Assembly (NCBI RefSeq): GCF_001304615.2
Contig: NZ_CP032683.1
Span: 2,108,001 to 2,172,000 of the forward strand
Length of the DNA: 64,000 nucleotides
Direction of reading: 5' to 3'
Source: Methanosarcina flavescens
GTDB lineage: Archaea; Halobacteriota; Methanosarcinia; Methanosarcinales; Methanosarcinaceae
This document shows positions 25,993 to 30,400 of the stretch, one piece after another (within the stretch, counting starts at the first letter, position 1; every line of letters begins with the position of its first letter). The notes under the pieces are model-generated. The model was given only the letters and a program-made list of their open reading frames with translations, had not been told where the DNA came from and did not search any database. A program made the translations under genes and the position numbers.

Positions 25993-28797
25993 ATGAGAGA
26001 TGGTCCGGACCCGTATGGGGTAAGAGATACTATTGAAACAGCTACCGGAAGTGCTAAGATCTACAGATTGAGTAAACTGGAAGAAAGGGGTTTTGAGGGA
26101 ATTTCCCTGCTCCCTTACTCCATAAGGATACTGCTGGAATCCTTGCTCAGACATGCGGACACTGAAAAGCGTTTAATAACCGCTGAGGATGTGGAGGCTC
26201 TTGCTCGCTGGAATCCTGAAAATGTAAGTGGTAGGGATATTCCGTTCATTCCATCAAGGGTAATTATGCAGGACTTCACAGGCGTTCCGGCTGTAGTAGA
26301 CCTGGCAGCACTCAGATCGGCAATGCAACGTCTGGGAGGCGATCCTTCAAAAATAAACCCTGTAATTCCTGCTGATCTTGTCATTGACCATTCCGTCCAG
26401 GTTGATTCTTATGGTACGGCTTATTCCCTTGAGGAAAATGAGAAAAAGGAGTTTGAGCGCAACACGGAACGTTATTCCGTCCTGCGCTGGGCACAGAAAG
26501 CTTTTGACAATTTCAGAGTTGTGCCCCCTGGAAGAGGAATCATCCATCAGGTAAATCTTGAATATCTGACCCCTCTTGTGCATCTTAAGGAGGAAAATGG
26601 GGAGCTATCGGCATTTCCTGACACCCTTGTAGGGACAGACTCCCATACAACAATGATTAACGGGATTGGAGTACTCGGATGGGGAGTCGGAGGCATAGAA
26701 GCCGAAGCTGTAATGCTCGGACAGCCTTATTATATGCCTGTGCCTGAGGTAGTGGGCTTCAAACTCTACGGAAAACCTGCACAGGGCGTCACTGCTACCG
26801 ATATTGTCCTGACAATCACAAGAATCTTGAGAGAAGAAGGAGTTGTCGGCAAATTCGTGGAATTTTACGGTCCAGGATTAAACTCGCTGAGCCTTCCGGA
26901 TAGGGCGACAATCTCCAATATGGCTCCAGAATATGGGGCAACCCTTGGAATTTTCCCGCCTGATGCCGAGACTCTCGACTACCTGAGAAGGACGGGCAGA
27001 AGTGAAGAACAGGTTGACCTTGTGAAAAAATATTTGGAAGCCCAGGACCTTCTTTACTCAGTTTACAAGCCCGATCCTGTATTCAGCCGCACCCTGGAAC
27101 TTGATATGAGCACTGTAAAGCCCTGCCTAGCAGGCCCGAAACGCCCCCAGGATCAGCTATTTTTTAACGAAGTACCTGGGAACTTCCGTGAAATTATGCG
27201 ACAGACCTTCGCCCGAAAGAAGGAATCAGGCCTTGAACTTTCCAGAGACCCTGCTTACCAGCGCTGGATAGGAGAGGGAGGGACACCTGTAGAAGAACCC
27301 GAGATTCCTGGCATAGAAGAGGAAATAGTAGAGTCTCAAGAGAAATCTTTCAGGGTAACACATGGTTCTGTGGTAATCGCAGCAATTACTTCCTGTACCA
27401 ATACCTCAAACCCTTCAGTTCTGATAGGAGCAGGGCTGCTCGCAAAAAAGGCTGTCGAAAAGGGACTGCACGTAAAGCCTTTTGTAAAAACAAGCCTTTC
27501 CCCTGGCTCAAGAGTGGCTACGGAATATCTGAGAGCTGCATGCCTTTTGCCCTATCTTGAAGCCCTGGGTTTCCATCTGGTTGGTTACGGCTGTACAACT
27601 TGTATAGGAAACAGCGGACCTTTAACTGAAAGCGTTGCTAGAGAAATTCAGGAAAATGACCTTACTGTTGCAGCTGTACTCAGTGGAAACCGAAACTTCG
27701 AAGGGCGGATTAATCCTCTTATAAGGGCGAACTACCTGGCATCTCCGCCTCTTGTTGTCGCTTATGCAATTGCAGGTACTGTGAATATCAACCTTGAGAG
27801 CGATCCCCTTGCTTATGACCCCAACGGACGGCCTGTTTATCTCAGGGATATCTGGCCTTCAGAGGAAGAAATTAGAGAGGTTGAAAAGAACAGCATCAAA
27901 CCTTCAATGTTCGAAAAGGAGTATTCCGGCGTTCTGGAAGGTCCAGAGCTCTGGAGAGAACTGGAGGTTCCATCAGGGACCCTTTATGACTGGAATCCGA
28001 TGTCCACATATATTCAGGAGCCTCCTTATTTTGTGGATTTCCCGCTTACTTCGCCTTCGCCGGAAGATATAAAGAACGCAAGGATCCTCGCTCTTTTCGG
28101 GGACAGCATTACCACGGATCATATCTCACCTGCGGGAGACATTCCTGCAGATAGTCCTGCAGGCAGATACCTGATCTCTTGGGGTGTGAGCCCTGAAGAC
28201 TTCAATTCCTATGGATCTCGCAGAGGTAATCACGAGGTTATGATGCGCGGAACCTTTGGGAATATCCGGCTCAGGAACAAGCTCGTGGACAGGGAAGGAG
28301 GCTGGACTTTATATCATCCAAGGAAAGAGGATTTCCCGGAGGAAGCTTGCGGAGGAATCCCTATTTTTGAAGCAGCTATGCTTTATGCAGAAAATAATAT
28401 TCCTCTGATAGTTATAGCAGGAAAGGAGTATGGGACAGGCAGTTCCAGAGACTGGGCAGCCAAAGGTACATTCCTGCTCGGAGTAAAAGCCGTTATTGCC
28501 GAATCTTTTGAGCGTATTCACAGAAGCAACCTTGTAGGCATGGGAGTTCTTCCGCTGCAGTTTAAAGAGGGCGAGAATGCCGAAACTCTGGGACTCACAG
28601 GAAAGGAGAGCTATGATATTCTGGGCATTGAGTTCCTGGAGCCTCACGGAGAGCTTACAGTAAGGGCAAAAGACGAAAATGGAGTAGAGACTCTGTTCCA
28701 GGTAATCGTGAGGCTGGATTCGGCTGTAGAGATAGAATACTACAGGAACGGCGGGATTTTGCATAAGTTCCTGCGGGATTCGGTGAAGAAAAAATAA
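25993..28797 (+). CDS. acnA: Aconitate hydratase (AcnA/IRP type)
   Basis: A 934-residue aconitase that converts citrate to isocitrate. The three cysteine ligands of the 4Fe-4S cluster are present: Cys468 (ITSCTNTSNPS), Cys534 and Cys537 (GCTTCIGNSGP). The swivel domain includes FGDSITTDHISPAG and EYGTGSSRDWAAKGT. With citrate synthase just downstream, it belongs to the partial oxidative branch that Methanosarcina uses to make 2-oxoglutarate for glutamate. Isocitrate dehydrogenase is not in the window. Confidence 0.96.
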   Translation: MRDGPDPYGVRDTIETATGSAKIYRLSKLEERGFEGISLLPYSIRILLESLLRHADTEKRLITAEDVEALARWNPENVSGRDIPFIPSRVIMQDFTGVPAVVDLAALRSAMQRLGGDPSKINPVIPADLVIDHSVQVDSYGTAYSLEENEKKEFERNTERYSVLRWAQKAFDNFRVVPPGRGIIHQVNLEYLTPLVHLKEENGELSAFPDTLVGTDSHTTMINGIGVLGWGVGGIEAEAVMLGQPYYMPVPEVVGFKLYGKPAQGVTATDIVLTITRILREEGVVGKFVEFYGPGLNSLSLPDRATISNMAPEYGATLGIFPPDAETLDYLRRTGRSEEQVDLVKKYLEAQDLLYSVYKPDPVFSRTLELDMSTVKPCLAGPKRPQDQLFFNEVPGNFREIMRQTFARKKESGLELSRDPAYQRWIGEGGTPVEEPEIPGIEEEIVESQEKSFRVTHGSVVIAAITSCTNTSNPSVLIGAGLLAKKAVEKGLHVKPFVKTSLSPGSRVATEYLRAACLLPYLEALGFHLVGYGCTTCIGNSGPLTESVAREIQENDLTVAAVLSGNRNFEGRINPLIRANYLASPPLVVAYAIAGTVNINLESDPLAYDPNGRPVYLRDIWPSEEEIREVEKNSIKPSMFEKEYSGVLEGPELWRELEVPSGTLYDWNPMSTYIQEPPYFVDFPLTSPSPEDIKNARILALFGDSITTDHISPAGDIPADSPAGRYLISWGVSPEDFNSYGSRRGNHEVMMRGTFGNIRLRNKLVDREGGWTLYHPRKEDFPEEACGGIPIFEAAMLYAENNIPLIVIAGKEYGTGSSRDWAAKGTFLLGVKAVIAESFERIHRSNLVGMGVLPLQFKEGENAETLGLTGKESYDILGIEFLEPHGELTVRAKDENGVETLFQVIVRLDSAVEIEYYRNGGILHKFLRDSVKKK

Positions 28798-28835: not shown

Positions 28836-28886
28836 AAAAGGTTCCACAAGCTTTACACAAAGCTTTTTATTTTTTGGAACCTTTTT
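28836..28886 (+). terminator. Nested hairpin after aconitase
   Basis: AAAAGGTTCC (28836-28845) pairs perfectly with GGAACCTTTT (28876-28885), and inside it AAGCTTT pairs with AAAGCTT. T-runs lie within and after it. It is 38 nt past the aconitase stop. Confidence 0.6.
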
Positions 28887-28978
28887 AATCAATAAGAAAC
28901 AAAGTTATTTTAATCATCTTACTTGTTTTGAAAAAGACAGCGTTCTGAAGACAATAGTTTTTAAACTTAATATTACTA

Positions 28979-29098
28979 GGCTCTGTAGAAATCCTCTGAA
29001 ATAACCAATCTTAACAAATTAAAACTGAATTGCCTGATTCAATTTTGCTGAGAACTTTAAGTCTATTAATGACGATTAAGTAGGTTTTCTACAGAGCC
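28979..29098. mobile_element. MITE of 120 bp with 13-bp terminal inverted repeats and 8-bp target duplication
   Basis: The element begins GGCTCTGTAGAAA and ends with its exact complement TTTCTACAGAGCC. It is flanked on both sides by the identical 8-bp sequence TATTACTA (28971-28978 and 29099-29106). It has no coding capacity, so it must be moved by a transposase elsewhere. GGCTCTGT ends with 8-bp duplications recall IS6-like elements, but the parent family is an inference. It sits between aconitase and citrate synthase. Confidence 0.88.
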
Positions 29099-29332
29099 TA
29101 TTACTATGCAATTTAGAGCCGCAGCTTATTTAAGATGGAATATAATTATAAAGCTCTTGAGATACAATTTCAACAAATTTAATATACTTATTCGATATAA
29201 TAGGAATGCATTGTCACCCTATTTTTGGGTCCTATAAGGCCCTTCGTGTTAAACTCTTCCATGTATAAGCAGAGGATTCCCCAAACTTCAAAGTTTTTTG
29301 AAAATCCTCTAGGCATAACTGTGAGGTAGAAA

Positions 29333-30400
29333 ATGAGTAAAAATATAAGTTTCATTGACGGGTTGGAGGGCATTCTGAAGTACAGGGAGATAGACATTAA
29401 CCAGCTGGTTGAGCTTCCTTATGATGCAGTTTCCTATCTGCTTATCCTGGGAGAACTCCCTGGAGATCAGGAACTTGCCGAATATTCAGCCCGCCTGCAT
29501 GGGGAACGTGAGATCAACAGGGAGGCGATTGATGTTATCCGTATGTGCAATCTCAGCATTGACTCTATAGAAGCGCTGCGTACAATCGTTTCTTTCATAT
29601 CACAGTTCGATCCGGATATTAACGACAACTCTCCTGAAGGAAATATGAGAAAAGCCATACGGTTAATTGCCAAGATTCCAACCATAGTTGCTGCATATCA
29701 TAGAATTGCAAATGGGAGAGAACCCGTGCCTCCTGACCCCTCCATCTCCCATGGAGCTAACTTCCTTTACATGATAAAAGGAAGCAAACCAAGTGATTTG
29801 GAAGCTGAGGTCATGGAAAAAGACTTTATCCTCAGCGCTGAACACGAACTAAATGCATCTACTTTTTCTTCAAGAGTTACTGCCTCTACCCTTTCTGACC
29901 TCTATTCTGCTGTTGTTTCCGGACTCTGTACCCTTAAAGGCCCTCTGCATGGAGGGGCGAGGGCAGAAGTTATGGCCATGATTGAAGAGATCGGTTCCTC
30001 GGAAAACGCAGAAAAATTTGTTCTTGAGAAAGTTGCAAATAAAGAAAAGATCATGGGTTTCGGGCACCGCGTATATAAGACCTATGATCCAAGGGGCAAG
30101 GTGTTCAAACAACTCTCCAGGCAACTTGCAGAGGCAAAAGGGGATATGCACTGGTATGAAATAGCCGAGGCAATAGAAAACACAGTCCTCCGCGAGCTTG
30201 TAGAGAAAAAAGGGAAGCCAATCTACCCCAATGTCGATTTCTATTCGGGAGTTATTTATAAGTATTTGGATATTCCCCCTAAACTTGCAACATCCATTTT
30301 CGCAATCGGCAGGGTCTCCGGCTGGATAGCTCATTGCTTTGACCAGTATGAGAAGAAAAGGATCATAAGGCCCAGAGCTTTCATGCTTGATGAATGTTGA
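29333..30400 (+). CDS. gltA: Citrate synthase
   Basis: A 355-residue short-type citrate synthase, condensing acetyl-CoA and oxaloacetate. Active-site residues are visible: His171 (SAEHELNAST), His206 (GPLHGGA), His245 (GFGHRVYKTYDPRG) and Asp302 (YPNVDFYSG). Length fits archaeal and Gram-positive forms. GAGG lies before the ATG. It follows aconitase in the same direction, though a terminator-like hairpin and a MITE now lie between, so it may depend on its own promoter (TATTATATTCC-like tract near 29140-29152 or AATATACTTATTCG near 29180). Confidence 0.95.
   Translation: MSKNISFIDGLEGILKYREIDINQLVELPYDAVSYLLILGELPGDQELAEYSARLHGEREINREAIDVIRMCNLSIDSIEALRTIVSFISQFDPDINDNSPEGNMRKAIRLIAKIPTIVAAYHRIANGREPVPPDPSISHGANFLYMIKGSKPSDLEAEVMEKDFILSAEHELNASTFSSRVTASTLSDLYSAVVSGLCTLKGPLHGGARAEVMAMIEEIGSSENAEKFVLEKVANKEKIMGFGHRVYKTYDPRGKVFKQLSRQLAEAKGDMHWYEIAEAIENTVLRELVEKKGKPIYPNVDFYSGVIYKYLDIPPKLATSIFAIGRVSGWIAHCFDQYEKKRIIRPRAFMLDEC

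Follow-up and report, generated by a model that had tools for sequence, protein, structure and literature searches.

A recently inserted 120-bp MITE with an IS5-family partner, and a possible second insertion sequence trace, in the acnA-gltA spacer of a Methanosarcina

The DNA analysed here (the window, a stretch of 64 kb) belongs to a Methanosarcina whose complete genome consists of one contig of 3,283,688 bp (3.28 Mb). It harbors acnA and gltA, coding for an aconitate hydratase and a protein of the citrate-synthase family, respectively; the spacer between them embeds a hairpin followed by a T-run, a 120-bp element, and a promoter-like block preceding gltA (Table 1). The ends of the element are perfect 13-bp inverted repeats, and the 8-bp target duplication around it is equally free of mismatches; a repeat search of the window also recovered the direct as well as the inverted repeat. 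A preliminary description had read it as a MITE devoid of a transposase gene, and its ends, duplication, and coordinates turned out to be exact; moreover, the ORF list of the window contains no ORF of at least 120 amino acids inside the element. When folded as single-stranded DNA, the MITE closes on its ends (z -3.7), which is expected for any element because of such inverted ends. The alignment of 23 MITEs (one row, L045, being in the wrong orientation) revealed no conserved RNA structure: only the terminal repeats and three adjoining pairs form, the covariation term is +0.24, and two-sided changes occur in none of 15 pairs.

Table 1. Coordinates of the features of the acnA-gltA region (positions in the window).
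Feature	Position	Strand	Evidence
acnA, aconitate hydratase	25993..28797	+	TIGR01341, 1347 bits (cut-off 945)
Hairpin then T-run 3' of acnA	28836..28885	+	z -5.0; covarying stem
Left target-site duplication TATTACTA	28971..28978	+	direct reading; single copy in the nearest relative
MITE, 120 bp	28979..29098	+	7 identical copies and 16 of at least 93% identity in its own genome
Left terminal inverted repeat GGCTCTGTAGAAA	28979..28991	+	same first 19 bp as the left end of the 1008-bp IS
Right terminal inverted repeat TTTCTACAGAGCC	29086..29098	-	direct reading and repeat search
Right target-site duplication TATTACTA	29099..29106	+	direct reading
gltA promoter-like block, conserved in the genus	29166..29205	+	CAACAAATTTAATATA resembles archaeal BRE/TATA; putative promoter
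gltA, citrate-synthase family	29333..30400	+	TIGR01800, 417.2 bits (just under the cut-off of 421.3)

The spacer was compared across 30 gltA loci, and the distance between acnA and gltA could be measured in 26 of them, our own among these; two loci without an acnA match (L093 and L107) and two falling short of the gltA start (L114 and L117) were left out. With no MITE in it, the spacer measures 403-433 bp in 24 out of 25 relatives, the exception being L115 (581 bp). The mean identity to our own spacer is 0.49-0.59 around the insertion, 0.99 at positions 29166-29185, and then 0.80-0.95 up to the gltA start. The hairpin, analyzed in 21 of the 26 spacer loci, has seven consensus pairs, two of them with two-sided changes; it likely represents the 3' end of the acnA transcript, where the archaeal polymerase would stop. 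Concerning gltA, its untranslated leader (29206-29332) is long and 80-95% conserved in the genus; no stable fold was obtained for it as a single sequence (z 0.02), and the spacer gave no Rfam match at E up to 1. The long spacer of the relatives, the acnA hairpin, and the conserved promoter-like block before gltA make the two genes look separately transcribed, with the MITE lying between the two units.

It had been proposed that the element affects the co-expression of acnA and gltA. In principle, the insertion might alter the expression of either gene by splitting a co-transcribed pair or by displacing an upstream regulatory site, since the putative gltA TATA element (near 29184) follows about 75 bp after it, and since the spacer is 535 bp long with it, against about 407 bp otherwise. 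However, a long spacer without any MITE is already the rule in every relative measured, acnA has a hairpin of its own, and the MITE occupies a stretch of the spacer that is not conserved: the 40 bp directly 3' of it are poorly conserved (0.49-0.56, against 0.80-0.99 from position 29166 on), and the conserved gltA block begins about 60 bp 3' of the MITE. The proposal is therefore not supported by these data, and we regard an effect on expression as unlikely.

The search of the host genome for the MITE retrieved 26 matches, 16 of which are full length with an identity of 93-100%, seven of these being identical to one another; older relatives of the element are also present beyond the 16 full copies. 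Furthermore, the 13-mer end, allowing at most one mismatch, occurs at 117 places in the genome versus eight for a reversed-pattern control. These counts, together with the seven identical sites and the 16 at 93% identity or more, indicate that the MITE is not a chance arrangement. An exact 8-bp duplication flanks 11 of the 16 full copies, whereas the other five (L005, L008, L010, L012, and L014) have none by themselves; copy L008 is located inside an IS fragment. Once the flanks of the 16 copies are joined, no stop-to-stop frame longer than 120 codons runs over the site except at L008 and L013, which lie in or beside IS sequence; the joined sites therefore look intergenic.

The same 13-mer also revealed the autonomous partner of the MITE. 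Among the matches listed, many exact 13-mer pairs are spaced by 1004-1008 bp, and they delimit an insertion sequence of 1008 bp with the same ends and the same 8-bp duplication as the MITE. The 18 copies that were read differ from their consensus at 0-6 positions, and 13 of them have an exact 8-bp duplication; the duplications of the MITEs and of the IS are alike AT-rich (19-22% GC, the GC content of the window being 42%). Such a duplication length recalls the ISH1 group of IS5. The frame of the IS has 313 codons, and its product belongs with the IS5 transposases, scoring 226 bits with the NCBIfam model NF033579 (curated cut-off 140) and containing, as a domain-level match, the DDE catalytic domain PF01609 (DDE_Tnp_1; 76.5 versus 23 bits). 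This transposase has 21 full-length matches in the genome, 20 of which are without stops.

The MITE and the IS have the same 13-bp ends and, on the left, the same first 19 bp; their interiors differ. In addition, four loci harbor hybrid elements with one MITE end and one IS end, three of which have a perfect 8-bp duplication of their own. At L005 (1357-1620), a 264-bp unit consists of a tandem pair of 72-bp IS right ends and, after it, a complete MITE, and the whole is flanked by the duplication GTAATAAG. A 281-bp hybrid, of which one end is of the MITE type and the other is an IS right end, is found both at L018 and at L019 (1501-1781), where it is flanked by TAAAATAA and GATAATAA, respectively; the different duplications at the two sites imply that it moved as a unit. 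L020 is similar to this hybrid, its flanks agreeing at only six out of eight bases. Finally, L013/L037 has an IS next to a MITE; the two share one target and lie among three copies of CTATATTT. The hybrid loci point to one transposase using the MITE and IS ends alike.

We thus consider it very probable that this non-autonomous MITE is mobilized in trans, and that the transposase comes from the 1008-bp IS5-family element, which has the same 13-bp ends and about 21 near-identical copies in the genome. A different transposase recognizing the same ends, now lost or escaping recognition, might instead be mainly responsible for its movement, given that, past the beginning of the A-run of the 13-mer, the right end of the MITE has AAACCTA and that of the IS AAATCCTTAA. 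This possibility appears quite improbable, though: among the matches listed, exact 13-mer pairs with IS-like spacing correspond to the 1008-bp IS or to MITEs and hybrids, the hybrids bear an end of that very IS, and outside it the IS5 model (NF033579) matches the genome only once and weakly (25.9 bits). That the MITE arose from the 1008-bp IS by a simple internal deletion, which would account for the shared ends and 19-bp left border, is very improbable and can be set aside, because the interior of the MITE aligns to the IS no better than shuffled sequences do (core score 14, shuffle average 14.9) and is a separate, old sequence, with 78% mean column identity across 23 MITEs from several genomes.

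The mobilization in trans by the IS5-family transposase is built on the ends, the duplications, the copies, the partner IS, the hybrids, and an empty site, all of which are observed. According to it, the DDE transposase would recognize the ends common to the IS and the MITE and would cut or copy the 120-bp element out; the element would then be joined to a staggered, AT-rich target of 8 bp, and gap repair would generate the duplication. The insertion between acnA and gltA took place after the split from the nearest sequenced relative, in a part of the spacer that is not conserved, where it is probably neutral.

As for the age of the insertion, the nearest relative (G028, 95% identical over the gltA side) has an empty acnA-gltA site, with a single TATAACTA and no MITE (L089). 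The joined flanks of 10 of the 16 copies, i.e., this site and nine others, align without interruption in the same genome (L001, L002, L003, L004, L006, L007, L009, L011, L015, and L016), and the remaining six, including L014, gave partial, IS-only, or no matches. The insertion had been called recent on the basis of its own sequence, and the empty site and the identical copies in the genome bear this out. Further copies in the host, a complete IS sharing its ends, and an empty site in a relative were all searched for and found. Elsewhere, G028 has two copies of the MITE and G017 one close copy. At the level of the genus, family matches were retrieved from 24 out of 30 genomes, our own included (23 of 29 relatives), and the transposase, at E up to 1e-40, from 15 out of the same 30; elements with this layout, 117-123 bp in length, are readily aligned with one another. 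In a family-level sample, 20 of 60 genomes gave a match, many of those outside the genus consisting of just 20-26 bp of one end. Among 29 named matching loci, 28 are from Methanosarcina and one from a Cloacimonadota MAG contig. Probing a contig collection, which may leave out our own genome, with the exact left half of the MITE did not retrieve any sequence.

The element is an ordinary, well-supported MITE with a partner of a known kind: it is short and lacks a transposase gene, has terminal inverted repeats and a duplication of fixed length, and is accompanied by dispersed copies and an autonomous partner with the same ends. In the sections of Kamoun et al. (2013; PMC3852290) dealing with the IS5-associated MITEs of Methanosarcina, elements of the same genus and with the same partner family are described in up to a few tens of copies, and their similarity to the partner is, as here, limited to the inverted-repeat borders, generally less than 20 nt. 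The IS5 MITEs in those sections are 140, 147, 185, and 252 bp long, with duplications of 0 or 3 bp and inverted repeats of 15-17 bp, whereas ours has 120 bp, perfect 13-bp ends, and an 8-bp duplication; this sets it apart from that IS5 list only, and it may be among the 26 earlier archaeal families (reference 5 therein). The TIME elements of Pseudomonas, as presented in the relevant part of PMC4133298, are also miniature, non-autonomous, and able to build mosaic mobile units, but they are bacterial and belong to the Tn3 family, while the present MITE is archaeal with an IS5 partner. A literature search for the end sequence of the MITE found no paper.

The spacer contains a second IS trace: when the region upstream of gltA was searched for in the genus, IS copies were also retrieved. 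The likeness extends over 29170-29207; positions 29170-29196 of the gltA promoter-like block match, in antisense, the starts of IS5 transposase genes, and share 27 out of 27 bases with an IS5 relic of another Methanosarcina (G016; L204). The 18-mer at 29175-29192 occurs exactly at 24 places in the genome, once at gltA and 23 times in IS transposase copies or fragments; no copy with one mismatch and four with two were found in the genome. The alignment of the block with the IS covers about 39 columns with a score of 51, reached by none of 1000 dinucleotide shuffles, and no DNA segment of the 64-kb window except the one at 48244-48352 matches the IS better. That segment is a true IS fragment, 109 bases from inside the IS5 transposase gene with 89% identity to the current IS. 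Moreover, read in reverse, the block encodes SNKYIKFVEI, corresponding to the N-terminus of the transposase; in a post hoc search of the six frames of the window, this peptide was the top match to an N-terminus profile (E 3e-5, the next being 0.26), built from eight typed peptides, three of them lightly edited.

The 27-mer is present within five mismatches in 28 of the 30 gltA loci, the other two (L114 and L117) falling short of its position, and within two mismatches in four loci of a sister genus. The conservation of the shared 18-mer inside the IS (0.84-0.91, versus 0.57-0.96 elsewhere in the element) is not distinctive and does not rise markedly above its surroundings, which speaks against a regulatory role common to gltA and the IS. 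We read the likeness between the block and the IS as homology, and infer from the sequences both the direction of transfer and the identity of the promoter; this suggests that the block is a domesticated IS fragment. On this basis, we tentatively advance, as a possible rather than a probable scenario, that the same IS5 lineage used this spacer twice: the conserved core of the gltA promoter in Methanosarcina and its sister genus would be a domesticated antisense transposase start, in which an outward promoter of the IS became that of gltA, the present MITE having inserted about 75 bp upstream of it. A literature search for archaeal promoters domesticated from IS elements found no relevant paper.

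Overall, these data depict an IS5-driven MITE that underwent a recent burst in a methanogen, and empty sites and natural hybrids tie this MITE to its transposase. The second IS trace of the spacer is more interesting than the MITE itself, in that a scrap of an IS5 transposase gene seems to have supplied the promoter region of a central-metabolism gene, a case in which promoter domestication in archaea may be put to the test.
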